Positions 8,109 through 26,157 of a stretch of DNA of 41,622 bases are shown in pieces. Both the position numbers and the translations under genes were made by a program. Origin of the DNA: Pseudomonas sp. BN417. GTDB taxonomy: Bacteria > Pseudomonadota > Gammaproteobacteria > Pseudomonadales > Pseudomonadaceae. The notes beneath the pieces were generated by a model. The model did no database searches. It had not been told where the DNA came from and saw only the letters and a list, made by a program, of their open reading frames with translations. Position 1 is the first letter of the stretch, and the number at the start of each line of letters is the position of its first letter. The DNA is taken from positions 1 through 41,622 of the forward strand of contig NZ_SSOJ01000096.1 in the NCBI RefSeq assembly GCF_029871205.1. The letters are read 5' to 3'.

Positions 8109-11100
8109 ATGCGCAAAGCCAGTGACCCGACTCCCCCGCTTCCCCATATTCCAGCCCTCGATCCCGTCGCCTTCGAGCAATCCTGGCAAGACGCCCACAG
8201 CCTGCTGGCCGCGCTGAACGGCGCACAACTGGGCGCCTGGTCCTGGGATATCGACACCGGCCGGGTCACCTGGTCCCGCGGCGCCCAGGCACTATTCGGC
8301 CTCGACCCACACCGGCCACTGAGCGAGCCGGTCGACTACATCCAGCTGATTCCCGAAGACGACCGCGGCGAGGTGCTGCACCTGTTCCGGGAAGTCCTCG
8401 CCGGGCGCCAGGCCGAGCGCGCCATGCGCCACCGAATCCGCTGGCCCGATGACAGCCTGCGCTGGCTGGAAATAAGCGGCAGCCTGCAGCCCGAGGCCGA
8501 TGGCCGGCGACGGATGATCGGCGTGATCCGCGATGTCACCCTGCAGCAACAGCGTGCCCAGGACCTGATCAGCTCGCAGCAGCGCTATTCCAGCCTGTTC
8601 CACCTGAGCCCGGACGTGGTGCTGCTGGTCCGCCTGACCGACAGCCTGATAGTCGAGGCCAACCAGCACTTCGAAAACGTGCTCGGCTGGCCGGCGGCCG
8701 AGACCATCGGCCATACCACCCTCGAACTGGGTATCTGGGTCGACCTGGACCAGCGCGAATGGCTGCACCGCCATACCCGTGGCAATAGCGCTCCAGTGTC
8801 CCAGGAGGTCAAGCTGCGCACCCGCGCCGGCGGCATCCTCTACGGCGTGCTGTCGAGCCAGTACATCGAGCTGGAAGGGCACCCCTACCTGATCAGCACC
8901 TTCCTCGACACCACCGAGCGCAAGCGCGCCGAGAACGCCCTGCGCAAGAGCGAGGAGAAGTTCGCCAAGGCCTTCCGCAGCACGCCCGAGGCGGTGGTGA
9001 TCACCGATCGCACCAGCGGCCGCTTCATCGAGATCAACGCCGGCTTCGAGCGCCAGTTCGGCTGGAGCAAGGACGAGACCATCGGCCGCAGCTCCCTGGA
9101 CCTGGGTATCTGGGAAGACCCAAGGCAGCGCCAGGCGATGCTCGACACCCTGCAGCAGGACGGCAGCCTCAGCGAGCTGGAAGTCAACTTGCGCTACCGT
9201 GACGGCACCCGCGGTACCTGCCTGCTCTACGGCGAGGAGATCGAGCTGGATGGCAACACCTGCCTGGTGCTGACCGCCCGCGACATCACCCGCCAGCGCG
9301 CCCAGGAACAGGCCCTGAGGGAAAGCCAGGAGCGCCTCAACCTGGCGCTGGAATCCGCCGACCTCGGTACCTGGGACTGGCATATCGCCAATGGCACCCT
9401 CTATGGCTCCGCCCGCGCCTCGGCCCTGCACGGCCTGGCCAAGGAGCCCTTCGAAGGCGCGTTCGGCGACTTTTTCGTCTGCGTCCCGGAGGAAGACCAG
9501 CAGAACATGCGCCGCGCCTACCAGGAGCTGCTGGAGGGGCGCGACAGCGAGTACCAGGTGACCTATCGCACGCGCTTCGCCAACGGCGAGGTTCACTACC
9601 TGGAAAGTACCGCCAAGCTCTATCGCGACGCGCTGGGCCGGCCGCTGCGGATGACCGGCATTCTCATGGATATCAGCGAACGGGTGCGCCGCGAGCAGCG
9701 CCTGGCGGCTTCGGAGGAGAAGTTCGTCACCCTGTTCCAGGCCAGCCCCGATCCCATCTGCGTCTCGCGTATCCGCGACGGCGTGTTCATCGAGATCAAC
9801 CCCAGCTTCAGCGAAGTGTTCGGCTGGCAGCCGGAGCAGATCGTCGGCCGCAGCGGACCCGAAGTGAATTTCTGGGCCGAGCCCGAGCAGCGCGCGCAAC
9901 TGTTCAGCGAGCTGCTGCGCGACCAGTGCCTGGACAACGTCGAGGCGCGCTTCCTGACCCGTGACGGCCGCCTGCTGACCTGCGTGGTGTCCAGCCGCTT
10001 CATCCGCGTCGAGCGCCAGCTCTGCATCACCACCACCTTTCGCGACATCACCGCGCGCCAGCAGGCGGAGGCGGCGCTCAAGGCCAGCCAGGAGAAGTTC
10101 GCCAAGGCCTTCCACTCCAGCCCCGACGCCATCACCATCACCGAGCGCAACACCGGGCGCTACATCGAAGTCAACGATGGTTTCTGCCGACTCACCGGCT
10201 ATCGCCCGGAGGATGTGCTGGGTCGTACCGCCAGCGAGATGAACATCTGGGCCAGGCCCACCGAGCGCGACCAGCTGATCGAGATCATCACGCGCAACGG
10301 TCGCGTGCACCACCTGGAGATGCTCGGCCAGCACCGCGACGGCAGTCAGAAGACGGTGGAAGTCTCGGTGGAGCAGATCGAGCTGGACGGCACGCCCTGC
10401 CTGCTGCTCACCGCGCGCGACATCAGCGCCCTGAAGGACGCCCAGGCGCAGATCCAGCACCTGGCCTACCACGACCCGCTGACCAACCTGCCCAACCGCG
10501 CGCTGCTGACCGATCGCCTGACCCAGCAGATCGCCCTGCTGCAGCGCCACAACATGCGCGGCGCCCTGCTCTTCCTCGACCTCGACCACTTCAAGCACAT
10601 CAACGATTCCCTCGGCCACCCTCTGGGCGATGCGGTGCTGAAAATGGTCACCGCCCGCCTGGAAGCCAGCGTCCGGCTGGAAGACACGGTGGCGCGCCTG
10701 GGTGGCGACGAGTTCGTGGTGCTGCTCACCGGGCTGGAGGGCAAGCGTTCGGAGGTCACCCGCCAGGTGCGCATGATCGCCGACAAGCTGCGCAAGCTGC
10801 TGGCCGAACCCATGCTGCTGGAGGGTCACCGCCTGCAGGTCACCCCGAGCATCGGCATCGCCCTGATCCCGGACCACGGCGCCAGCCCAGCCGACCTGCT
10901 CAAGCGCGCCGACATCGCCCTGTACCGGGCCAAGGATTCCGGACGCAACGCCATCCAGATGTTCCGCAGCACCATGCAGGACGCCGCCAGCGAACGCCTG
11001 CGGCTGGAGAGCGACCTGCGCATGGCGCTCGCCCGCGGCGAGTTCGAACTGCACTTCCAGCCCCAGGTGGATGCCCGCAACAACCGGGTGGTGGGCGCCG

Positions 11101-11789
11101 AAGCCCTGCTCCGCTGGCAGCACCCGAGCCTGGGCCCACAGTCGCCCGGACAGTTCATCCAGGTACTGGAAGAAAGCGGGCTGATCCTCGATGTCGGCGC
11201 CTGGGTGCTGGCCGAGGCGTGCCATGTCTGCGAACAACTGGTCGCCGAGGGTCTGGCCGAGGCCAGGGGCTTCAGCCTGTGCGTGAACATCAGCCCGCGG
11301 CAGTTCCGCCAGAGCGATTTCGTCGAACGGGTCGAGCGCAGCCTGGAGCGTAGCCGCCTGCCGGCGCAGATGCTGAAGCTGGAAATCACCGAAGGCATCG
11401 TCATCCAGAACCTCGACGACACCATCGGCAAGATGCGCCGGCTGAAGAAGCTGGGCCTGAGCTTCGCCATGGACGACTTCGGCACCGGCTATTCGTCCCT
11501 CACCTATCTCAAGCGCCTGCCGGTGGACGCCCTGAAGATCGACCAGTCCTTCGTCCGCGACGCCACCCAGGACCCCAACGACGCCGAGATCATCCGCGCC
11601 ATCGTGGCCATGGCCCGCAGCCTGGGCCTGGAGATGATCGCCGAAGGCGTGGAGCGAGAAGAGCAGTTGGCCTTCCTCGAACAGCAGGGCTGCCACCTCT
11701 ATCAGGGCTATCTCTACAGCAAGCCGCTACCCCTGGCCGAATTCCGCGCCGTGTTGGCCCACAGCCGGCAGCGGCCGACGCCGGTCTGA
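8109..11789 (+). CDS. multi-PAS GGDEF-EAL cyclic-di-GMP enzyme
   Basis: A 1226-residue cytoplasmic protein with no membrane segment or signal peptide. Six PAS-like repeats precede the output domains (about residues 30-145, 158-272, 283-398, 405-530, 534-652, 660-777), joined by short coiled linkers of the ERKRAENALRKSEEKF type. The diguanylate cyclase domain (785-950) has an intact GGDEF at 865-869 and an I-site RLED five residues before it. The phosphodiesterase domain (960-1215) keeps EALLRW, LEITEG, DDFGTGYSS, KIDQSF and AEGVE. Both activities look possible; which dominates cannot be told. Start ATG 8109 follows GGAAAGGGG. The gene stands alone. Confidence 0.93.
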   Translation: MRKASDPTPPLPHIPALDPVAFEQSWQDAHSLLAALNGAQLGAWSWDIDTGRVTWSRGAQALFGLDPHRPLSEPVDYIQLIPEDDRGEVLHLFREVLAGRQAERAMRHRIRWPDDSLRWLEISGSLQPEADGRRRMIGVIRDVTLQQQRAQDLISSQQRYSSLFHLSPDVVLLVRLTDSLIVEANQHFENVLGWPAAETIGHTTLELGIWVDLDQREWLHRHTRGNSAPVSQEVKLRTRAGGILYGVLSSQYIELEGHPYLISTFLDTTERKRAENALRKSEEKFAKAFRSTPEAVVITDRTSGRFIEINAGFERQFGWSKDETIGRSSLDLGIWEDPRQRQAMLDTLQQDGSLSELEVNLRYRDGTRGTCLLYGEEIELDGNTCLVLTARDITRQRAQEQALRESQERLNLALESADLGTWDWHIANGTLYGSARASALHGLAKEPFEGAFGDFFVCVPEEDQQNMRRAYQELLEGRDSEYQVTYRTRFANGEVHYLESTAKLYRDALGRPLRMTGILMDISERVRREQRLAASEEKFVTLFQASPDPICVSRIRDGVFIEINPSFSEVFGWQPEQIVGRSGPEVNFWAEPEQRAQLFSELLRDQCLDNVEARFLTRDGRLLTCVVSSRFIRVERQLCITTTFRDITARQQAEAALKASQEKFAKAFHSSPDAITITERNTGRYIEVNDGFCRLTGYRPEDVLGRTASEMNIWARPTERDQLIEIITRNGRVHHLEMLGQHRDGSQKTVEVSVEQIELDGTPCLLLTARDISALKDAQAQIQHLAYHDPLTNLPNRALLTDRLTQQIALLQRHNMRGALLFLDLDHFKHINDSLGHPLGDAVLKMVTARLEASVRLEDTVARLGGDEFVVLLTGLEGKRSEVTRQVRMIADKLRKLLAEPMLLEGHRLQVTPSIGIALIPDHGASPADLLKRADIALYRAKDSGRNAIQMFRSTMQDAASERLRLESDLRMALARGEFELHFQPQVDARNNRVVGAEALLRWQHPSLGPQSPGQFIQVLEESGLILDVGAWVLAEACHVCEQLVAEGLAEARGFSLCVNISPRQFRQSDFVERVERSLERSRLPAQMLKLEITEGIVIQNLDDTIGKMRRLKKLGLSFAMDDFGTGYSSLTYLKRLPVDALKIDQSFVRDATQDPNDAEIIRAIVAMARSLGLEMIAEGVEREEQLAFLEQQGCHLYQGYLYSKPLPLAEFRAVLAHSRQRPTPV

Positions 11790-11798
11790 ACCCTTGAT

Positions 11799-11856
11799 GG
11801 TGCGCATGGCGCACCCTACGCGAAGGTCGTGACTGGTAGGGTGCGCCGTGCGCACC
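11799..11856. repeat. imperfect inverted repeat of ~20-bp GTGCGC-rich arms
   Basis: GGTGCGCATGGCGCACCCTA (starting 11799) and TAGGGTGCGCCGTGCGCACC (11837-11856) are inverted copies with one mismatch; each arm is itself partly palindromic. It resembles the dispersed extragenic palindromes common between Pseudomonas genes and sits between two convergent genes. Confidence 0.7.
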
Positions 11857-11870
11857 GATACCCGCCAATG

Positions 11871-11893
11871 AAAAAGGGCGCCCGCAGGCGCCC
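11871..11893. terminator. bidirectional intrinsic terminator
   Basis: GGGCGCC (11876-11882), loop CGCA, GGCGCCC (11887-11893), with five A on the left and a pyrimidine-rich right side. On the minus strand the stem is followed by TTTTT, ending the small heat-shock gene; on the plus strand by TCTTCCTTT, ending the GGDEF-EAL gene. Confidence 0.85.
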
Positions 11894-11917
11894 TCTTCCT
11901 TTCTCAGTGGATGACCA

Positions 11918-12367
11918 TCAGCTTTCCAGCACGGCGCGATGCCCGTTGATCGGGATGCGCTTGGCCTTGGCCTCTTCCGGCACCACGCGCACCAGGTCGA
12001 TGTGCAGCAGGCCGTTCTGCAGCGCGGCGCCCTTGACCTCGATATGGTCGGCCAGGCGGAACGACAGCTTGAACGCTCGCTGGGCGATGCCATGGTGCAG
12101 GTAGGTGACTGCGGCGTCGTCAGTCTTCTCGCGCTTGCCGCCGCTGACCGCCAGCACGCCACGCTCTACTTGCAGGTCCAGGTCTTCTTCCTGGAAGCCG
12201 GCCACGGCAATGACGATGCGGTACTGGTCGTCTCCGTGCTTCTCGACGTTGTAGGGCGGGTAGGTGCTGCCGCCTTCATTGCGCAGGGCCGATTCGAACA
12301 GGTCGTTGAAGCGGTCGAAGCCCACGGAATGACGGAACAGGGGGGCGAGGGAAAATGCAGTGCTCAT
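11918..12367 (-). CDS. ibpA: small heat-shock protein, Hsp20/IbpA family
   Basis: A 149-residue ATP-independent holdase that binds unfolding proteins in the cytoplasm. It begins MSTAFSLAPLFRHSVGFDRF, like IbpA; the alpha-crystallin domain spans about residues 35-130 (YPPYNVEKHGDDQYRIVIAV, GVLAVSG), followed by NGLLHIDLVRVVPEEAKAKRI carrying the C-terminal I-P-I motif (RIPI). ATG 12367 has an AGGAGA site, itself sequestered in a hairpin; an upstream in-frame start at 12400 would lie inside that RNA element and is rejected. Heat regulation is directly supported by the RpoH promoter and thermometer upstream. Confidence 0.93.
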   Translation of the reverse strand: MSTAFSLAPLFRHSVGFDRFNDLFESALRNEGGSTYPPYNVEKHGDDQYRIVIAVAGFQEEDLDLQVERGVLAVSGGKREKTDDAAVTYLHHGIAQRAFKLSFRLADHIEVKGAALQNGLLHIDLVRVVPEEAKAKRIPINGHRAVLES

Positions 12368-12434
12368 GGTGATCTCCTGAATAATCAGCAAGTGTTTCAA
12401 TGGCAGGACCCGACTTCGGCATCCCGCATTACCC
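12368..12434 (-). ncRNA. ROSE-type RNA thermometer in ibpA 5' UTR
   Basis: The 67-nt leader folds into an upper hairpin (GCGGGA..CCG AAGT CGG..TCCTGC) and a start-proximal hairpin CTTGCTGA-TTAT-TCAGGAG (minus strand, 12392-12374). The latter pairs UUGCU with the AGGAG ribosome-binding site and leaves a G-G mismatch. That UUGCU/AGGAG pairing with a G-G opposition is the hallmark of ROSE elements, known upstream of Pseudomonas ibpA genes. Confidence 0.8.
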
Positions 12435-12463
12435 TAGATAGGGACGCTCGAAATCATTTCAAG
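12435..12463 (-). promoter_or_regulatory. RpoH (sigma-32) promoter of ibpA
   Basis: On the minus strand: CTTGAAA (12463-12457), 13-bp spacer, CCCTATCTA (12443-12435). This matches the sigma-32 consensus CTTGAAA / CCCCATNTA with one mismatch and leaves a leader of about 60 nt before ibpA. Confidence 0.85.
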
Positions 12464-12479
12464 TCCCCGAGGAGAACTC

Positions 12480-13226
12480 ATGCAGAAAGTCATGCTCATC
12501 ACCGGCGCCAGCCGCGGCATCGGCGCTGCCACCGCACGCCTCGCCGCGCAGCGCGGCTATGCCCTGGGCATCAACTACCGCCAGCAGCGGGAGGCGGCCG
12601 AGGCGCTGGTGCGCGAGATCGAGGCCGCCGGAGGCCGCGCCCTGGCCCTCGGCGCCGACGTGGGCGACGAGACCCAGGTGCTGCGGATGTTCGAACACCT
12701 GGACCGGGCGTTCGGCCGGCTGGATGTGCTGGTCAACAACGCCGGCATGCTGGAGCGCCAGATGCGCCTGGAAGACATGGACGTGGCGCGCCTGGAACGG
12801 GTCCTGCGGGCCAACGTGGTGGGCAGCTTCCTCTGCGCGCGGGAGGCCATCAAGCGCATGTCTACCCGCCATGGCGGTCAGGGCGGGGCGATCGTCAACC
12901 TGTCCTCCATCGCCGCCCGCCTGGGTGCACCCAACGAATACATCGACTACGCAGCGGCCAAGGGCGCCATCGACAGCATGACCCTGGGCATGGCCAAGGA
13001 GCTGGCGGCCGACGGCATCCGCGTCAACGCCGTGCGCCCGGGCGTGATCCGCACCGAGATCCACGCCAGCGGCGGCGAGCCGGACCGGGTCGAGCGGGTG
13101 CGCCAGTCGGTGCCCATGGGGCGTGGCGGCGAAGCGGAAGAAGTGGCCAACGCGATCCTCTGGCTGGCCAGCGAGGAGGCTTCGTATACCAGCGGGGCCC
13201 TGCTGGATGTGGGGGGTGGGCGCTAG
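12480..13226 (+). CDS. SDR-family oxidoreductase
   Basis: A 248-residue classical short-chain dehydrogenase. Cofactor motif TGASRGIG near residues 8-15, NNAGMLER near 90, catalytic serine in NLSS and YAAAK as the YxxxK pair, with the C-terminal GALLDVGGGR typical of FabG-like enzymes. An arginine in the early INYRQQ segment suggests NADP(H) preference. Substrate unknown. ATG 12480 follows GAGGAGA. It diverges from ibpA, so its promoter must overlap the RpoH promoter region, but I see no heat-shock promoter facing it. Confidence 0.9.
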   Translation: MQKVMLITGASRGIGAATARLAAQRGYALGINYRQQREAAEALVREIEAAGGRALALGADVGDETQVLRMFEHLDRAFGRLDVLVNNAGMLERQMRLEDMDVARLERVLRANVVGSFLCAREAIKRMSTRHGGQGGAIVNLSSIAARLGAPNEYIDYAAAKGAIDSMTLGMAKELAADGIRVNAVRPGVIRTEIHASGGEPDRVERVRQSVPMGRGGEAEEVANAILWLASEEASYTSGALLDVGGGR

Positions 13227-13262
13227 CGGCGCGGTAGGGAGCCGGGGCAAGCCTGCGGCCTG

Positions 13263-13293
13263 CTTTCGCGAATGAATTCGCCCCCACAGGAAA
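13263..13293. repeat. REP-like element copy 1
   Basis: A 31-bp block (CTTTCGCGAATGAATTCGCC followed by CCCACAGGAAA) identical to 13435-13465. The core GCGAATGAATTCGC is palindromic. Related, more degenerate copies lie at 19698, 25262 and 41446. Confidence 0.85.
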
Positions 13294-13340
13294 TGCATCA
13301 CGCCCGCCCCTCGCGCGGATTGCCCCCTGGCAGCAAGTAG

Positions 13341-13367
13341 GTTGGGCTGAGCTCCGCGAAGCCCAAC
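13341..13367. repeat. GTTGGGC/GCCCAAC inverted repeat
   Basis: GTTGGGC (13341-13347) and GCCCAAC (13361-13367) with a 13-bp loop. The same arms and spacing recur at 25376-25402, so this is a second dispersed palindrome family. Confidence 0.7.
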
Positions 13368-13434
13368 AGCCCAACTTCGGCGTTCAGGATCGCTGGGGCT
13401 CGCAGGCCAGGGTCTGCGGGGCCGCTAAGCGGCC

Positions 13435-13465
13435 CTTTCGCGAATGAATTCGCCCCCACAGGAAA
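13435..13465. repeat. REP-like element copy 2
   Basis: Identical over 31 bp to 13263-13293, in direct orientation, preceded by the hairpin GGGGCCGCTAAGCGGCCC. Together the copies fill most of the 256-bp gap between the SDR gene and the convergent oxidoreductase. Confidence 0.85.
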
Positions 13466-13482
13466 AGCACCAAGGCAGGCCT

Positions 13483-14535
13483 TCAATCCTGCGCCACCTC
13501 CACCACCCCGCCCTCGCGCGCCGCCCGGGCGATGGCCTCCACCACCCGCAGGTTCTGCAAGCCGTCGCGGACGCTCACCAGGGGTTCGGCCTCGCCACGG
13601 ATGACCTGACAGAAATGTTCCAGCTGCAGCGCCAGGGGATCTTCACGGCGCAGTTCAGCCACTTCGCAGGTGAAGGGCTTCCACCAGGAGCGGTCCTCCG
13701 GCTGGTCGTAGCACTTCAGGCGCAGGGTGGGCACGGCCAGGGAGCCGCCGGTGCCGGCAATCAGGTAGCAGTCCTCGTCGTCGTAGCTGGGGTAGTCGCG
13801 ATTCTCACCGGAGGTCTGTTCCCAACTGCGGGCAGAAGCGGCGGTGTCGGAAAGCAGGAAGCTGCCCAGCGCGCCATTGGCGAAGCACAGGCTGATGGCC
13901 ACCGTGTCTTCCACCGGGAATCCACGAGTGGCGCTGGAGGCCAGGGCCTGGACCGCGGTTATCTCGCCGCACAGCGAACGGAGGTTGCCGATCTCGTGGA
14001 TCAGGTTGATGAGCACCGGGCCGCCGCCGGCCTCGCGGCGCCAGGGCGCGGCATCGAAATAGTCGTCCGGCTTGTAGAAGAGCGCGCTGCCCATCACCGC
14101 CACCAGCGCCCCCAGGCTACCCTGGCGGATGATCTCCCGAGCCTGGGCCAGGATCGGACTGTGGGCGCGGTGGTGGCCCACCAGCAATGGCACCCGCGAG
14201 CCACGGGCCGCCGCCAGCAGCCGCTCGCCCTCTTCCAGGGTATGCGCCACGGGCTTCTCGACCAGCGCGGCGACACCGGCCTGCAGGCAGGTCAGGGCCT
14301 GCTCCACGTGCAGCTGGTTGGGGGTGGCGAGGATGATCCCGTCCGGCCGCGCCTGCTCGAACAGCGCCTCCAGCGAGGGGAACAGCGGCACTCCGGCCCG
14401 TTCGGCCACCTCGCGGGCGGCGGGCGCTGGGTCGACCAGGGCCACGGGTTCGCAGGAGCGGCTGGCCTGGAGGAGTTCGAGGTGGCGCTGGCCGATCAGG
14501 CCGGCGCCGGCAATGGCGATGCGGAGGCTGTTCAT
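13483..14535 (-). CDS. Gfo/Idh/MocA-family oxidoreductase
   Basis: A 350-residue NAD(P)-dependent dehydrogenase of the inositol/glucose-fructose family. N-terminal Rossmann motif IAIAGAGLIGQRH, then ATPNQLHVEQA and the family EKP motif (VEKPVAHT), with catalytic-domain histidines in INLIHEIGNL. The substrate, probably a polyol or sugar derivative, is unknown. ATG 14535 gives the family N-terminus; a GTG at 14589 would add 18 unrelated residues. It diverges from a LysR gene 77 bp away, the usual arrangement for a regulated catabolic enzyme. Confidence 0.9.
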   Translation of the reverse strand: MNSLRIAIAGAGLIGQRHLELLQASRSCEPVALVDPAPAAREVAERAGVPLFPSLEALFEQARPDGIILATPNQLHVEQALTCLQAGVAALVEKPVAHTLEEGERLLAAARGSRVPLLVGHHRAHSPILAQAREIIRQGSLGALVAVMGSALFYKPDDYFDAAPWRREAGGGPVLINLIHEIGNLRSLCGEITAVQALASSATRGFPVEDTVAISLCFANGALGSFLLSDTAASARSWEQTSGENRDYPSYDDEDCYLIAGTGGSLAVPTLRLKCYDQPEDRSWWKPFTCEVAELRREDPLALQLEHFCQVIRGEAEPLVSVRDGLQNLRVVEAIARAAREGGVVEVAQD

Positions 14536-19318: not shown

Positions 19319-19663
19319 ATGTCTGATTTCATCACCGTTCTGCGCGAAACCTGCCCCACTCCGGTCCTGGATGCCACCAAGTGGAAACGCATCGGCGGCG
19401 ATCCGCACACCGTGAACCTCAATGCCTACCTCTCCAAGGACGGCAGCAAGATCATGGGCACCTGGATCTGCACCCCGGGCAAGTTCGAGGTGAACTACGA
19501 GAAGTGGGAGTACTGCCACTTCCTCGACGGCTACTGCATCATCACCCCGGAAGGCGAGCAGCCGGTGCACCTGAAGGCCGGTGATGTGTTCGTGATCGAG
19601 CCCGGCATGAAGGGCACCTGGGAAGTGGTGGAAACGGTGCGCAAGTACTTCGTCTTCGCCTGA
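19319..19663 (+). CDS. small cupin-domain protein (cupin_3/EutQ-like)
   Basis: A 114-residue single-domain beta-barrel. The cupin core includes MGTWICTPGKFEVNYEKWEY, CHFLDGYCIITPEGEQPVHL and KAGDVFVIEPGMKGTWEV, the wording typical of the DUF861 group. Metal-binding residues of the classical cupin motifs are only partly present, and no function can be assigned. ATG 19319 has GGAG 5 nt upstream. It has its own terminator and no operon partner. Confidence 0.88.
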   Translation: MSDFITVLRETCPTPVLDATKWKRIGGDPHTVNLNAYLSKDGSKIMGTWICTPGKFEVNYEKWEYCHFLDGYCIITPEGEQPVHLKAGDVFVIEPGMKGTWEVVETVRKYFVFA

Positions 19664-19724: not shown

Positions 19725-19766
19725 TGGCCAAGCGCCCCTCTGCCTGGGAGCAGAGGTGAAAAAGTA

Positions 19767-19794
19767 AAGGCCGGGCAATCGCCCGGCCTTTTCT
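19767..19794. terminator. bidirectional intrinsic terminator
   Basis: AAGGCCGGGC (19767-19776), loop AATC, GCCCGGCCTT (19781-19790) followed by TTCTTC. It separates the cupin gene from the convergent SDR gene. Confidence 0.9.
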
Positions 19795-19806: not shown

Positions 19807-20604
19807 TCAGGCCTTGTAGCGCGCAGCGGCCTTCGACAGCGACAGGTTCGGCGCCATCTGGAAGCGCGCGGCAGTGAAGCGCTCCCAGTCAGCCTGCTCC
19901 GGCAGCGAGGGGATGGTCACCAGTTCGCCCTGGTCCAGGCCGGCCAGCGCCGCATCGACCATCTCGTCCACGTCCATGAGGATTTCCTGGGGAATGTTCT
20001 CGATACCGGTGCCCGAGCGCTCCCAGATTTCCGTACGGGTCGCCCCCGGCAGCACCACCTGGACGCGCACACCCTTGTCCCGCACCTCCTGGTTCAGCGA
20101 CTGGCTGAGGTTCAGCACGTAGGCCTTGGTGCCGCTGTAGGTGCCATTGAACATTTCCGGGGCCAGGGCCAGCACCGAGGCGATGTTGATCAGCGTGCCG
20201 CGCCCCTGGGCGACGAAATTTGCGGCCGCAGCGGCGGCCAGGTGAGTCACCGCCACCACGTTGAGCTGGATCATCGCGTCGAAGCGGTCCAGGTCGGTAT
20301 CCAGCAGGCTGCCGCTGATGGCCACGCCGGCGTTGTTCACCAGCAGGCTGATGGCTGCATCACTGCGCAACCGTTGCGCCACGCGGTTCAGGTCGGCCCT
20401 GTCGGTCAGGTCGGCCTTCATCACCTCCACCTTCACCCCGGCCTGCTCACGCAATTGTGCCGCCAGGGCTTCCAGGCGGGCCTGGTCACGGGCGACCAGC
20501 AGCAGGTCGTAGCCCCGCTCGGCCAGGCGCCTGGCATAGGTGGCACCGATGCCGGTGGACGCGCCGGTGATCAGGGCAACGCCTTGGTGCTTCTGTTCGC
20601 TCAT
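19807..20604 (-). CDS. SDR-family NAD(P)-dependent oxidoreductase
   Basis: A 265-residue short-chain dehydrogenase with TGASTGIGATYA, the YDLLLVARD second strand, LLVNNAGVA, catalytic serine in INIASVLA and YSGTK as YxxxK. This layout is typical of the YqjQ/DltE-like group. Substrate unknown. ATG 20604 follows a GGAG site. It lies 128 bp downstream of tatA on the same strand but has its own promoter with a palindromic operator, so it may be regulated separately from the flavoprotein cluster. Confidence 0.9.
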   Translation of the reverse strand: MSEQKHQGVALITGASTGIGATYARRLAERGYDLLLVARDQARLEALAAQLREQAGVKVEVMKADLTDRADLNRVAQRLRSDAAISLLVNNAGVAISGSLLDTDLDRFDAMIQLNVVAVTHLAAAAAANFVAQGRGTLINIASVLALAPEMFNGTYSGTKAYVLNLSQSLNQEVRDKGVRVQVVLPGATRTEIWERSGTGIENIPQEILMDVDEMVDAALAGLDQGELVTIPSLPEQADWERFTAARFQMAPNLSLSKAAARYKA

Positions 20605-20732: not shown

Positions 20733-20981
20733 TCAGCCGCCTTGTGACGAAGCGGGAACCTCAGCGGCGCGTACGACCGCAGGCGGCCCCGGCTTGGCTA
20801 GGGTTGGCGACGGCTCCGCGATGACGGACGGGGAGTCCGCCGCCTCCGGGCTCATCGCCCGGCGAAAGCCCTTGATGGCCTCGCCCAGATCGGGGCCGAG
20901 GGTCTTGAGGCGTTTGGTGCCGAACAGCAGTACGGCGACGACGATGATGACCAGCCAGTGCTTCCAGTCGGTGATGCCCAT
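20733..20981 (-). CDS. tatA: orphan TatA-family twin-arginine translocase component
   Basis: An 82-residue protein with one N-terminal membrane helix ([13 protein letters not shown]), then the TatA amphipathic-helix signature [20 protein letters not shown] and a proline-rich tail. TatA oligomers form the passage for folded proteins targeted by TatBC. No tatB or tatC is nearby. It is the last gene of the cluster whose flavoprotein bears a twin-arginine signal, so it probably serves that cargo. The ~68 bp to the upstream gene fits one operon. Start ATG 20981. Confidence 0.9.
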
Positions 20982-21049
20982 GGTCTCGCTCCTCGCGGGA
21001 ATTCAGGGAAATTCTGGGCGGGCACCGGTGTGGCAACCCGCCCGCCGCA

Positions 21050-21508
21050 TCATTGGTTCAGCCAGGGATAGCGCGCGGAATCGCGGCCGCCGTAGTCCGG
21101 GTCGAGGTAGATGAAGCAGCGCTGGATCTTCCAGTCGCGGATCTCGAACACGTCGCACCAATGGCCCGCACCCCAGCCGGGTATGCCGGCTCGCCAGGGG
21201 CCGTCGACATGCTCGCCGTGACTGGTGCCCTCGCAGACCACCAGGTCGCTGCCTGAGAAGATCCAGTTGAAGTGCGAGTAGTCATGGGTGATCGACTTGA
21301 GGCGGCTACCGAGGTCGCCGAACATCTTGCCGATCTGCTCACGGCCGGTGGCCAGGCCCCACTTGGGAAACAGCACCTGGGCGTCTTCGGCGAAGAGGTC
21401 GAGGATGCTGCCACCCGTGGAGGTGATACCGCCGTTGTCGAAGGCTTTCAGGTATTCCAGCGCCACCGACTTGCGCTGCTCGTCGGTCATGGTCTGTGTG
21501 CTCAGCAT
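21050..21508 (-). CDS. NTF2/SnoaL-like protein
   Basis: A 152-residue protein with the NTF2-like cone fold inferred from VALEYLKAFDNGG, ILDLFAEDAQVLFPKWG, GREQIGKMFGDLG and the C-terminal HWCDVFEIRDWKIQRCFIYL. The superfamily includes ketosteroid isomerases, SnoaL cyclases and catalytically idle binding proteins. No signal peptide is present, so it is likely cytoplasmic, unlike its neighbours. ATG 21508 follows GGAG. Lying between cytochrome c and tatA, it could process the product of the exported dehydrogenase after uptake; this is inference. Confidence 0.82.
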   Translation of the reverse strand: MLSTQTMTDEQRKSVALEYLKAFDNGGITSTGGSILDLFAEDAQVLFPKWGLATGREQIGKMFGDLGSRLKSITHDYSHFNWIFSGSDLVVCEGTSHGEHVDGPWRAGIPGWGAGHWCDVFEIRDWKIQRCFIYLDPDYGGRDSARYPWLNQ

Positions 21509-21534
21509 GGGAGTCTCCGGTTCGCGAAAATGGA

Positions 21535-21918
21535 TCAGTGCAGGGACTGGACGTACTGGATGATCCGGGCGCGCTTGGCCGGGTCATCCTGGAAGTAGGT
21601 CATGGCGTTGCCCGGCGCCACCGCCTGGGTGTCGGTCAGCCAGGCATCGAGCAGCTGGTTGTCCCAGGTCTTGTCTGCCATGGCCTGGCGGAAGCCCTCG
21701 GAGTAAGTGAAACCGGCCGCGCTGCCCGCCTTGCGGCCGATCAGGCCGTACAGGTTCGGACCCTGGCCGTGGGGCTCGCCCTGCTTGAAGGTGTGGCAGA
21801 CCGCGCAGTGGTTGCTGGTCAGCTTTTCGGCCAGGGCCAGGTCGTCGGCCTGGGCCGCGCCGGCGGCGCCAAGGAACAGCAGGCCCAGGGCCAGCTCGCG
21901 CTTGAAGGGATTGCGCAT
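21535..21918 (-). CDS. periplasmic class I cytochrome c, mitochondrial/c2 type
   Basis: A 127-residue monohaem cytochrome: signal peptide (LALGLLFLGAAGAAQA), haem motif CAVCH at residues 38-42, then GPNLYGLIGRKAGSAAGFTY, closely like mitochondrial cytochrome c, and a probable axial methionine at 106 (GNAMTYF). It sits 30 bp downstream of the exported flavoprotein and is its likely electron acceptor, passing electrons on to a terminal oxidase. The pairing resembles exported flavoenzymes with cognate cytochromes, such as nicotine oxidoreductase with CycN, though the flavoenzyme fold differs. ATG 21918. Confidence 0.92.
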   Translation of the reverse strand: MRNPFKRELALGLLFLGAAGAAQADDLALAEKLTSNHCAVCHTFKQGEPHGQGPNLYGLIGRKAGSAAGFTYSEGFRQAMADKTWDNQLLDAWLTDTQAVAPGNAMTYFQDDPAKRARIIQYVQSLH

Positions 21919-21948
21919 CGTGATTGCCTCGCGGGTACGGCGGCCGGG

Positions 21949-23679
21949 TCAGGCCTTCTTGGATTCGAGATGGGCCTTGTTCGCCGCACGGTAGGCGAAG
22001 GCCAGGATCGGGCCGAGGGTTGCGCCGCCGGCCCAGTAAGCGCGGCCGGATGCCGAGGCGACGCAGTTGCCAACACCGTAGAGCCCCGGGATGGGTTGGT
22101 TGGCGTTGTCCAGCACCTGGCCGTGGGAGTTGGTTTTCGGACCGCCCTTGGTATCAAGGTTGCCGCCGGTGATCAGCGCCGCGTAGTACGGCCCCTCCCC
22201 CGCCAAAGGGTGCAAGGTGGGGTTGGCGGAGTCCTCGCCCGGCTTCACGTTGCCATTGAAGAGCTTTTCGACGGTCAGCTCACCGCGTTGGAAGTCGCTG
22301 TCCTTGCCGGCCTTTGCCAGAGCGTTGAAGCGCGCGACGCTGCCCTTCAGGTTGTCGAGGAAGTCAGCAGCGAGCGTCAGCCCGCCGGTCTCGGAACGGT
22401 ATTTCTCCAGACGCTCTTCGATGGCCTTGGCCAGGGCTTCCAGGGTGTCGCCCTTGATCACATGGCGGTCGTTGGCGCCCGCCGGGACGATGGGCGAGCC
22501 GTACTCGTCGCTGGCGCAGTAGGTCTGGGCGCGCTGGTCCCAGATGGAAATCATCACCAGGTTGGGGTATTCGGCCCTGCTGCCATCCCACTGGAAGAAG
22601 GTGGGCACCAACTCGTTGTAGACGGTTTTCTCGTTCACCACGCGCTTGCCGTACTTGTTCACCATCAGCATGGAGTCGCCGGTCATGGTGAAGATGCCGG
22701 ACATGGAACCGTCCCTGGCCAGGGCCTTCTCCAGCAGGATCGGGCAGTGCCAGGCGTAGTTCATGTTGCGCAGTTGCACGCCCAGTTCGCTGGCGATGCG
22801 GATGAAGTCGCCCTCGTTGGTCAGGGTGGCGCAGCCGCCGTAGACCGGGGCGTTGAGGAAGTTGCGGCGCAGTTCGGCATCGTGGGTGAAGCCGCCGCTG
22901 GCGAAGATCACCGCCTTGCGTGCGCGCACCCGCTGCAAGGTGCCCTCTTCGGTTTCCACCTCGACGCCGATGGCGGCGTCCTGTTCGTTGGTGAGCACGC
23001 GGGTCACCCGCGTCCCGGTGCGGATCACCACGCCGTCGCGGCGCGCCGCGGCGGTCAGGGTACGGATCGCCACGCGGCCACCGTCGGACATGCTCGGGCG
23101 CGCATCACGGGGCACCAGCACGCGCCCTTTCGGCGCCTTGTCCTCGGGAATCTCGCACCAGTAGTCCGGCACGTCGGCACAGTGGCGATACGGCAGGGCG
23201 TCCTTCTCGGCCAGCAGTTCGGCGGCGGGTGAAGCGCTGTCGTAGATCGCCTCGCACATTTCGTACTCCCAGTCGCTCAGGCCCAGCTTGGGCAGCGCGG
23301 GATCGAAGGATTGCGGACGGGTGAGCCGCGCCACATAGCGCAGGAAGTCCGGCTTCGGGTCGCTCATGCCGGCATCGCGCATGGCCTTGTTGTTCGGCAC
23401 CCAGTACCAGAACGCGGCCTTGGCAGCGGTGCCGCCTGGGCTCGCGGCCTTTTCCAGGATGACCACATCGTTGCCCAGCCAGCGGGCGAACAGGGCAGCA
23501 GGCAGGCCGCCCCCTCCCCCGCCGCAGACCACGATGTCGTGTTCGCTGTCGAATGGCTCGCCTTCCGCGCTGGCCTTGCCGACCGCCAGCCCGCCAAGGG
23601 CCATGGCCGCGGTGCCGGCGCCGGCGGCCTTGATGAAGTTGCGTCGGGTGGTGGCGAGCTTCTGTTGTTCGTCGTTCAT
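21949..23679 (-). CDS. Tat-exported FAD dehydrogenase, ketosteroid-dehydrogenase/fumarate-reductase fold
   Basis: A 576-residue flavoprotein. The Tat signal TTRRNFIKAAGAGTAAMALG has arginines at 12-13. The FAD motif follows (DIVVCGGGGGGLPAALFARW, then VVILEK, about residues 47-77). The C-terminal part (about 495-565: PYYAALITGGNLDTKGG, PIPGLYGVGNC, GRAYWAGGATLGPILAFAY) resembles 3-ketosteroid delta-1-dehydrogenases. I see no haem motif within it, unlike flavocytochrome c; the cytochrome is a separate gene downstream. The likely reaction is dehydrogenation of a ring or enone-type substrate in the periplasm; the substrate is unknown. ATG 23679 has GGAGAG. Confidence 0.9.
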   Translation of the reverse strand: MNDEQQKLATTRRNFIKAAGAGTAAMALGGLAVGKASAEGEPFDSEHDIVVCGGGGGGLPAALFARWLGNDVVILEKAASPGGTAAKAAFWYWVPNNKAMRDAGMSDPKPDFLRYVARLTRPQSFDPALPKLGLSDWEYEMCEAIYDSASPAAELLAEKDALPYRHCADVPDYWCEIPEDKAPKGRVLVPRDARPSMSDGGRVAIRTLTAAARRDGVVIRTGTRVTRVLTNEQDAAIGVEVETEEGTLQRVRARKAVIFASGGFTHDAELRRNFLNAPVYGGCATLTNEGDFIRIASELGVQLRNMNYAWHCPILLEKALARDGSMSGIFTMTGDSMLMVNKYGKRVVNEKTVYNELVPTFFQWDGSRAEYPNLVMISIWDQRAQTYCASDEYGSPIVPAGANDRHVIKGDTLEALAKAIEERLEKYRSETGGLTLAADFLDNLKGSVARFNALAKAGKDSDFQRGELTVEKLFNGNVKPGEDSANPTLHPLAGEGPYYAALITGGNLDTKGGPKTNSHGQVLDNANQPIPGLYGVGNCVASASGRAYWAGGATLGPILAFAYRAANKAHLESKKA

Positions 23680-23763
23680 GGTCGACTCTCCAGGTGCGAT
23701 GAAGGCCCCGGGCGGTATGCCGGGGCGCGTCGGGAAATGGGAAAAGGCGAGGCGCCGGGCGGA

Positions 23764-24678
23764 TTACCAGTAGTGCCAGAGCTGCAGGAACAGGCCGTCG
23801 GTGACACTGGTGTTGCGGCCTTCCACGCCCTTGGAGTAATGCAGCGAGACCTGGTCCCACATCTTCTGGGCATAGAGGCTCTGGATGCCCGGCTTGAGCT
23901 GGAACAGCACGCCAGCGCCGAGGGCGGTTTCGTCGGATTCGGAGTCGGGGATGATGCGGCCCCAGCGGTCGTCGGATCCCCAGGTCTTCTGGTGGTCGTA
24001 ACTGAGGAATGGCGTCATCTGGTAGGTGGGCCGGTCGAGCACGTTGTAGCCAAGGCGCAGGTTGGCGTGGAAGGTGTTGCCCGGCTCCGTGTCGTGCGGA
24101 CCGTCGCCACGGAGGATGCCGCCCACCAGCAGGTCGACGTTCACCTTGCCAAACCACTCGTTGTAGAAGAGCGACGGCCAGAAGGACCAGGTGTCGCTGC
24201 TTACCGAGTCGGCGCCGACCGGCACCTGCACGTAGGCTTGCGCGCCGAGGGTGCGCAGCGGCGTGGGGTTGTACCAGACCAGGCCGCCAACCAGGGGATC
24301 GCCCAGGCCGCTGACGCGCACGCCATTTCCGCGCACGGCCACCTCCGGTACGGTGATGCTCGCGATGAAGCCGTTCTTCGGCAGGCCGTCGACCTTCCAG
24401 TAATGCAGCAGCGAGGACAGGCCGACGTAGGTATCGGTGCCGCTGCCCTTGACCTTGTCGCCGTCGTCGTCGAAGCGCTTGCTGTCGTCGTTCCACTGCA
24501 CGTATTGGCCGAACGAGTTGTAGGGCTCGGTGAAGTCCGAGCTGAACTGGAAGCTCTGCGGCCGGTTGCCCGCAAAGGGGATCCCCGAGGCCTGGGCTTG
24601 CGGGTGCGGAAGGAGGCCGGCACCCAGCATCAAAGTGCTCAGTGCCATCGAAGGGGCCCTGCTGTTTACTAAGCGCAT
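23764..24678 (-). CDS. outer-membrane protein, MetA-pathway (SphA-like) transporter family
   Basis: A 304-residue protein with a signal peptide (cleavage near AQASG) and alternating beta-strand pattern through to a terminal aromatic run (LFLQLWHYW), as in outer-membrane barrels ending in an aromatic. It resembles the 'MetA-pathway of phenol degradation' family, linked to hydrophobic-substrate uptake and catabolism. It is the first gene of the cluster, 84 bp upstream of the flavoprotein. ATG 24678 has AGGA 8 nt upstream; ATG 24648 is also possible. Confidence 0.82.
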   Translation of the reverse strand: MRLVNSRAPSMALSTLMLGAGLLPHPQAQASGIPFAGNRPQSFQFSSDFTEPYNSFGQYVQWNDDSKRFDDDGDKVKGSGTDTYVGLSSLLHYWKVDGLPKNGFIASITVPEVAVRGNGVRVSGLGDPLVGGLVWYNPTPLRTLGAQAYVQVPVGADSVSSDTWSFWPSLFYNEWFGKVNVDLLVGGILRGDGPHDTEPGNTFHANLRLGYNVLDRPTYQMTPFLSYDHQKTWGSDDRWGRIIPDSESDETALGAGVLFQLKPGIQSLYAQKMWDQVSLHYSKGVEGRNTSVTDGLFLQLWHYW

Positions 24679-25470: not shown

Positions 25471-26157
25471 TCAGTCGTCCAGGCCGAGGGCAGCGAAGGC
25501 TTCGAGGATCTTGTCCTGCACTTCTTCGATGCTGAGGCTGGTGGAATCCAGGATCAGTGCGTCTTCGGCCGGTTTGAGCGGCGCCACCGAGCGCTGGCTG
25601 TCGCGCTCGTCGCGCTCCTGGATTTCCAGCAGCAGGGAGGCTTGGTCGGCTTCCATGCCCTTGCCCTTGAGCTGCAGGTAGCGACGGCGGGCGCGCTCCT
25701 CGGCGCTGGCAGTGAGGAAGATCTTCAACTGCGCCTGGGGGAAGACAACGGTGCCCATGTCGCGGCCATCGGCCACCAGGCCGGGGGCTTCGAGGAAGGC
25801 GCGCTGGCGTTGCAGCAGGGCCTCACGCACCACCGGCAGCGCGGCAACCTGCGAGGCGCCGGCGCCCACCTGTTCGGAGCGAATCACGTCGGTGACGTCC
25901 TCGCCTTCCAGGATGATGCGCTGGCCACCACCGGCCTTGGCGTTGAACTGCACGTCCAGGTGCGCCGCCAGGACCTTGAGGGATTCCTCGTTGGTCAGGT
26001 CGACGCCGTGGTTGCGCGCGGCGAAGGCCAGCAGGCGGTACAGCGCGCCGGAGTCCAGCAGGCGCCAGCCCAGGCGCTTGGCCAGCAGGCCGGCGACTGT
26101 GCCCTTGCCGGAGCCGCTGGGTCCGTCGATGGCGATCACGGGCACGATGACGCTCAT
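25471..26157 (-). CDS. cmk: cytidylate kinase
   Basis: Phosphorylates CMP and dCMP with ATP. The 228-residue protein has the P-loop [11 protein letters not shown], the substrate-binding LLDSGALYR and [13 protein letters not shown], and the lid region [17 protein letters not shown] 26157 overlaps the tyrA/aroA stop by 4 nt (ATGA), so the two are translationally coupled. In P. aeruginosa, as I recall, rpsA follows cmk; here a terminator and unrelated genes follow. Confidence 0.97.

Follow-up and report, generated by a model that had tools for sequence, protein, structure and literature searches.

Cyclohexanone dehydrogenase (CDH; EC 1.3.99.14) of Alicycliphilus denitrificans K601 is a crystallized flavoenzyme (PDB 8AM3, 8AM6, and 8AM8). 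The portions of its description covered here report activity on cyclohexanone and 3-methylcyclohexanone, an assay with 2,6-dichlorophenolindophenol (DCPIP), and a gene located beside that of a molybdenum 3-hydroxycyclohexanone dehydrogenase (PMC10966990). In the 41,622-nucleotide stretch of Pseudomonas sp. BN417 analyzed in this study (contig NZ_SSOJ01000096.1, here called the window), a relative of this enzyme is encoded by a gene, designated FAD below, that lies in an operon with genes for an outer membrane protein (OMP), a cytochrome c (CYT), a SnoaL/NTF2-fold protein, and TatA. The gene cluster, its homology, the conserved active site, the export signals, and the linkage to hydroquinone genes can be read directly from the sequences. 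The operon probably serves to desaturate a small alicyclic ketone in the periplasm; electrons would pass to cytochrome c, and a phenol or hydroquinone product would be cleaved in the cytoplasm.

PnpCDEFG and Hap are the gene names of the hydroquinone pathway, and the known feeders of that pathway (4-nitrophenol and 4-hydroxyacetophenone) start from aromatic rings. Relatives of PnpC, PnpD, and hydroxyquinol dioxygenase are present in the window genome and stand beside the module in related bacteria, but the feeder proposed here would start from a non-aromatic ring. The combination of an exported flavodehydrogenase and a cytochrome c is described for NicA2/Pnao and CycN of Pseudomonas putida S16, where, in the sections of the source covered, the flavodehydrogenases carry predicted export signals and the acceptor cytochrome is encoded in the same operon (PMC9396064). 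NicA2/Pnao are members of the flavin amine oxidase family, whereas the window enzyme is a member of the succinate dehydrogenase/fumarate reductase superfamily, and its electron transfer to the cytochrome is a prediction from the genes. The window flavoprotein matched PF00890, and the amine oxidase family was absent from the seven Pfam matches, in agreement with the suggestion of the initial annotation that the logic resembles that of NicA2-CycN with an unrelated flavoenzyme fold. There is also a counterpart for an additional TatA-type protein linked to a single Tat substrate, the TatE of Pseudomonas stutzeri, which is specific for NosZ transport in the part of the source covered (PMC4361764); its substrate is different, and the role proposed for the window TatA follows from position only.

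A CDH-class flavoprotein with a conserved active site

The nearest solved structure to the window flavoprotein was CDH (8am3; Table 1), and the next, after 8am3 and its variants, was the KstD 7p18 (E = 1.2e-42). Alignment with MAFFT showed identity to CDH at 356 of 567 aligned residues (63%), so that an enzyme first regarded as undescribed was found to have a crystallized relative. In the sections covered of PMC10966990, the catalytic residues of CDH are Tyr195, Tyr376, Tyr570, and Gly574, the pocket and its mouth comprise Trp113, Phe352, Tyr415, Phe496, and Leu530, and Cys305 lies 1.84 Å from C8M of FAD; replacement of Trp113 with Ala admits the bulkier dihydrocoumarin. All ten of these residues (W113, Y195, C305, F352, Y376, Y415, F496, L530, Y570, and G574 in CDH numbering) were identical in the window protein. 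Its catalytic set is Tyr173, Tyr354, Tyr548, and Gly552, and a covalent FAD link is predicted at Cys283, which occupies the position of Cys305.

Related loci were collected with a peptide-pattern scan, limited to one genome per species and to close relatives, which yielded 32 loci; one of these (L044, 23% identity) was dropped, leaving 31. The site residues were then compared in a 38-row alignment consisting of the window protein, the 31 loci (including the truncated L041), five further copies of which two were duplicates, and CDH. The catalytic residues were kept in 37 to 38 rows, each of the last two sites being gapped in one row, and the FAD-linking Cys was kept in all 38 rows as well as in 14/14 further rows. 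Departures at the remaining sites were limited to Tyr415 replaced by Phe in two rows and single gaps at some sites. Seven further close relatives, including a Shinella protein and five from a third gene arrangement described below, had the same ten residues (7/7). In seven distant relatives (38 to 44% identity), the Cys was kept in 7/7 and the four catalytic residues in 6/7, while Trp113 was lost in 7/7. Relationships were judged by identities and site residues in place of a wider phylogeny. Because the CDH residues are kept, the flavoprotein is assigned to the CDH class, with a pocket predicted to suit a cyclohexanone-sized ring.

A conserved four-gene module

Relatives of FAD, CYT, and SnoaL were present in all 31 loci and of OMP in 29. 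The cytochrome relative lay directly downstream of FAD in 31/31 loci and the OMP relative directly upstream in 29/31, and the full order OMP-FAD-CYT-SnoaL on one strand was observed in 29/31, so that chance does not account for the gene set. The exceptions were a Marinobacter locus (L015), with SnoaL 6.5 kb away and OMP unmatched, and L043, with OMP unmatched. The gene order had been expected to recur in other proteobacteria, and this held for these four genes, which are taken to form the conserved module, but not for TatA. The loci cannot be counted as independent, since L016 and L017 seem almost identical, many come from Caballeronia species, and L013 and L046 are apparently from one genome.

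The flavoprotein is rare. It was found in 3 of 398 genomes drawn from the phylum and in 3 of 369 drawn from the class (threshold 1e-50; two of the three were distant relatives), the window genome being counted in both. A draw from the order around Caballeronia, with CDH as query and the central genome counted, gave 6 of 399, and within the genus of the window 3 of 18 genomes carried it.

Export signals and the proposed cytochrome partner

A Tat signal was recognized near residues 10 to 38 of the window flavoprotein by TIGR01409 (Table 1); PF10518 scored 22.0 bits, slightly below its cutoff of 22.7. Both the flavoprotein and the cytochrome therefore carry export signals, Tat by family match for the former and Sec by eye for the latter, from which their location is predicted. 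The 31 loci together with L051, L054 to L057, and L067 to L071 made up a set of 41 close loci (approximately 55% identity or more). A twin-arginine motif preceded the flavin domain in 40 of these, and a CXXCH protein was encoded directly downstream of the flavoprotein in 39. A flavoprotein with a conserved Tat signal and an adjacent cytochrome c with a signal of its own, as proposed in the initial annotation, are supported.

The sole close locus without a Tat motif, from Shinella (L057), lacked the cytochrome too. This locus (positions 9869 to 13595) kept the ten site residues and contained two SnoaL genes and a short-chain dehydrogenase/reductase (SDR) gene; it perhaps encodes a cytoplasmic version using another acceptor. 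In L032 the cytochrome (approximately 9752 to 10096) had the heme site SAVCH instead of CAVCH, and in L054 and L055 the downstream cytochrome was of another sequence type, unmatched by the window cytochrome.

When a strict signal-peptide rule was applied to 54 rows, six of which were paralogs from the window genome (24 to 30% identity), 35 had Tat plus cytochrome, 11 had Tat without cytochrome, and 8 had neither. Six of the 11 Tat-only rows fell in the close clade; five of these (L024, L026, L029, L037, and L068) show a CXXCH that the rule missed, and the sixth was L032 with its SXXCH. The other five were L076 to L079 and L006, an own-genome paralog in which the Tat-like motif is internal. The pattern among the seven distant relatives was mixed: L060 had both Tat motif and cytochrome, in L079 the Tat motif was accompanied by an immediately downstream, same-strand gene for a CXXCH protein, which did not pass the signal rule, and L058 and L059 had neither. 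Given 40/41 and 39/41 in the close loci against this mixed pattern, the Tat-cytochrome pairing is firm among close relatives but loose among distant ones. In L059 (9381 to 11820), a Rhodococcus plasmid relative with 40% identity, the flavoprotein gene is flanked by an NTF2 gene and by one for a ferredoxin, as though a different acceptor had been adopted.

In CDH itself, a Tat-like SRRGFLR is visible near the N terminus. In a word search, the main text of PMC10966990 did not contain the terms cytochrome, signal, periplasm, Tat, or electron acceptor, and in the part of the Alicycliphilus genome paper covered, the passages on periplasm and cytochrome c concern nitrate reductases or oxidases and not CDH. 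The literature covered thus presents CDH as an isolated enzyme in a dye assay, without physiological acceptor or location, for which the present locus suggests cytochrome c and the periplasm.

Linkage to genes for hydroquinone ring cleavage

Relatives of PnpC and PnpD (hydroquinone 1,2-dioxygenase; PnpD was recognized by PF18191) and of an aldehyde dehydrogenase were encoded within the module locus itself in 22/31 cases, comprising 8 Pseudomonas loci and 14 of the Caballeronia group. An iron-containing alcohol dehydrogenase (Fe-ADH) of the maleylacetate reductase type was found in 23/31 loci (at 28% only in L014), an intradiol dioxygenase in 25/31, and a Rieske protein in 23/31. In the 14 loci of the Caballeronia group, PnpC starts 131 to 144 nt behind SnoaL on the same strand, as measured from match ends, and in the 8 Pseudomonas loci a LysR gene lies between SnoaL and PnpC. 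The same gene block was present under NCBI names on plasmid pNK83 of Caballeronia sp. NK8. There, both hydroquinone dioxygenase subunit genes (L056, 14707 to 16229) are annotated as hydroxyquinol 1,2-dioxygenase, an apparent misnaming.

A third arrangement was observed in the Burkholderiales genomes G440, G482, G535, and G574, with genes for PnpD, aldehyde dehydrogenase, Fe-ADH, a branched-chain ABC importer, FAD, CYT, and an intradiol dioxygenase; the distance from PnpD to FAD was 8 to 11 kb in these four genomes. The contig of a fifth such locus (G759) is short, and PnpD lies on another contig. By these three gene arrangements, the CDH family is tied to hydroquinone ring cleavage, a link that lies outside the window and had been missed.

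Of the nine loci without a local PnpD, seven belong to genomes that carry it farther off, in G416 (L026) on the same contig approximately 12 kb from the module. The window genome encodes a complete hydroquinone cluster, located on contig C134. Its PnpC and PnpD match the small and large hydroquinone dioxygenase subunits of 4zxa, and its intradiol enzyme matches 3n9t and 1tmx, the latter a hydroxyquinol 1,2-dioxygenase. The Marinobacter locus instead encodes an aromatic-ring hydroxylase, a glyoxalase/dioxygenase-family protein, and an FAA hydrolase, and in L054 (G405, a genome of another class) an HpaB-type phenol hydroxylase is encoded 2 kb downstream. In L041 (8001 to 9707), from the 2.4-Mb genome of Candidatus Paraburkholderia schumanniana, the flavoprotein frame ends early, at 381 residues; given this truncation and the lack of PnpD, the module may be decaying there.

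Proposed function and alternatives

In the proposed mechanism, the OMP would admit the compound, and the Tat-exported flavoprotein would remove an alpha proton, with the beta carbon giving up a hydride to the FAD bound through cysteine. The adjoining cytochrome c would take up the electrons singly and deliver them to the respiratory chain. The resulting compound, itself a phenol or hydroquinone or soon converted to one, would enter the cytoplasm, where its ring would be cleaved through PnpCD, the semialdehyde dehydrogenase, and maleylacetate reductase. Periplasmic activity and electron transfer to the cytochrome are inferred by analogy with NicA2/Pnao-CycN, and an aromatic product is inferred as well. 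If 1,4-cyclohexanedione were the substrate, or were formed by the SDR from an alcohol precursor, one desaturation would give cyclohex-2-ene-1,4-dione. This product is a tautomer of hydroquinone, and on that account our guess for the substrate is 1,4-cyclohexanedione or a similar compound. In the part of PMC4413776 covered, ene reductases used 1,4-cyclohexanediones as hydrogen donors and converted them to hydroquinones (conversion ≤20%), so the proposed chemistry has a flavoenzyme precedent. The fuller scheme is respiratory aromatization, in which an exported covalent-FAD desaturase feeding a dedicated cytochrome c would convert a periplasmic alicyclic 1,4-diketone, or a related ring, to hydroquinone, aromatization would yield respiratory electrons, and the hydroquinone pathway would then cleave the ring inside the cell. 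This scheme is tentative and is considered possible rather than probable.

Several observations weigh against a desaturation module that feeds hydroquinone cleavage. In the text covered, the A. denitrificans CDH is reported in another pathway, via 3-hydroxycyclohexanone. Among the distant relatives, L076 to L078 (3/7) had a Tat motif, but the stretch scanned contained no convincing cytochrome. OMP was unmatched in the five third-arrangement loci and in L054, L055, and L057, and SnoaL was found in one of the five (G482, 81%). PnpD was absent from 2 of the 31 genomes (Marinobacter L015 and L041) and also from G405, G407, and the Shinella record. The intradiol dioxygenase was present without PnpCD in the stretch covered in L026, L039, and L040, so that hydroxyquinol is also allowed as an entry compound and a ring yielding it is a possible substrate. 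PnpD was present in 13 of 18 genomes of the window's genus, a base rate from that genus alone; genome-level co-occurrence was therefore set aside as strong evidence, and it is adjacency that carries weight. Finally, the window locus and that of its congener G012 have no adjacent hydroquinone dioxygenase gene.

This last point would fit an alternative in which the flavoprotein performs only the step from cyclohexanone to 2-cyclohexenone, in a cyclohexanol pathway as in Alicycliphilus, with the hydroquinone genes as neighbors by chance or for another reason. The site residues identical to those of CDH, the nearest characterized enzyme, with its cyclohexanone and 3-methylcyclohexanone substrates, are in keeping with it. 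However, PnpCD genes stand in the module locus in two arrangements and at the distance given above in the third, and the alternative is judged unlikely, though not negligible.

The initial annotation had described the flavoprotein as KstD-like, and such an enzyme would attack a steroid, a terpenoid, or another large ring system in the periplasm. There is superfamily-level similarity to KSTD models and to 7p18 and 4c3x, the OMP belongs to a family tied to hydrophobic compounds, and MMPL, DUF1302, and DUF1329 genes adjoin the module in Marinobacter. Nevertheless, the best NCBIfam KSTD model scored 234.7 bits against a cutoff of 789, and the small-ring pocket of CDH is kept, including the Trp113 that the distant relatives have lost. 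In the alignment, 7p18 has Ala opposite Trp113 and Trp opposite the FAD-linking Cys. A KstD or steroid identity was rejected on the model score and the pocket residues, and attack on a large ring system is regarded as quite improbable. Operation in reverse, as a respiratory enone reductase fed by the cytochrome in the manner of UrdA or flavocytochrome c, is scarcely credible, since membership of flavocytochrome c fumarate reductases and urocanate reductase in the same superfamily is outweighed by the desaturase catalytic Tyr set, a neighboring cytochrome that resembles mitochondrial cytochrome c and is presumably a high-potential carrier, and the genomic linkage to oxidative catabolism.

Each part of the proposed desaturation module is of a known kind; as far as searches of the open-access literature show, what is new is the export of a CDH-class enzyme together with its cytochrome partnership and its tie to hydroquinone cleavage. 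If correct, the module would open a new route into aromatic catabolism and would supply a desaturase and its acceptor as a self-contained pair, potentially useful for making enones and phenols.

TatA, SDR, OMP, and SnoaL proteins

Both TatA and SDR were found in only 1 of the 31 loci, that of Pseudomonas sp. BN102, and in all three flavoprotein carriers of the window's genus (including L013/L046 and L051, the locus of congener G012) they lie behind SnoaL. Weaker SDR matches (27 to 43%) in L037 and L041 represent other SDRs. TatA also diverges faster, with 65% identity to congener G012 compared with 91% for FAD. On this distribution, TatA was rejected as part of the conserved module, and the pair is an addition seen in the window's genus only; the "own export component" of the initial annotation is not supported as a part of the module. 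The window genome has four TatA-like genes and a single TatC, located elsewhere beside another TatA, so the operon TatA would have to use that translocon. From its position, our guess is that in this genus the additional TatA probably assists in exporting the large flavoprotein, and, likewise as a guess, the SDR is a candidate alicyclic alcohol dehydrogenase.

The OMP is a probable uptake channel; its AlphaFold model was all-beta and of low confidence (pLDDT 49), too poor for a fold search. The SnoaL model had an NTF2 fold (pLDDT 79.6), and the fold search returned limonene epoxide hydrolases, a ketosteroid isomerase, TerC, and designed proteins with similar E-values. Many polar residues were invariant in the SnoaL alignment (A1). 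A plausible guess is that this protein works in the cytoplasm as an isomerase or hydratase of an enone-type product.

Locus layout and operon extent

The five genes first described are present on the minus strand at 24678 to 20733, in the order OMP, FAD, CYT, SnoaL, and TatA, with the small gaps expected (84, 30, 26, and 68 nt). The end at 20733 was incorrect, however, because an SDR gene follows TatA after 128 nt. The predicted transcription unit thus reaches past this position to 19766, with the SDR gene and a hairpin included (Table 1). Purine-rich stretches precede FAD, CYT, SnoaL, TatA, and SDR, as judged by eye, and a promoter scan gave no promoter. The hairpin is the sole minus-strand terminator-like site between 19600 and 25500. 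On both strands of this region, 5 such sites were observed compared with 4.1 expected in shuffles; the count is therefore uninformative, and the SDR hairpin is singled out by its 11 pairs and T-rich tail.

Table 1. Features of the operon in the window
Feature	Coordinates	Strand	Evidence
OMP, Phenol_MetA_deg family, Sec-type signal	23764..24678	-	PF13557, 74.1 bits, cutoff 22, 2.3e-20
Tat-exported CDH-type flavoprotein (FAD), export predicted	21949..23679	-	PF00890; TIGR01409, 26.1 bits, cutoff 16.7; 8am3, E = 1.3e-246
Class I cytochrome c (CYT), CAVCH heme site, Sec-like signal by eye	21535..21918	-	PF00034
SnoaL_2/NTF2-fold protein, signal peptide absent by eye	21050..21508	-	PF12680
Stand-alone extra TatA	20733..20981	-	PF02416 and TIGR01411, both over cutoff
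SDR, sixth gene of the unit	19807..20604	-	PF00106, 3.7e-46
Terminator-like hairpin, T-rich tail, 11-pair stem (8 G-C)	19766..19791	-	Directly behind the SDR gene

Beyond the operon end, a cupin gene lies on the opposite strand (19319 to 19663). On the other side, a cmk-like gene, named by eye, is located at 25471 to 26157 and is followed by the operon; in Pseudomonas, rpsA would be expected behind cmk. Congener G012 has the operon, SDR, cupin, and an inaA-like gene together at a site without a cmk match. Three more flavoproteins of the same superfamily are encoded within 25 kb on contig C158 of the window genome (27 to 51 kb; L049 and L050).

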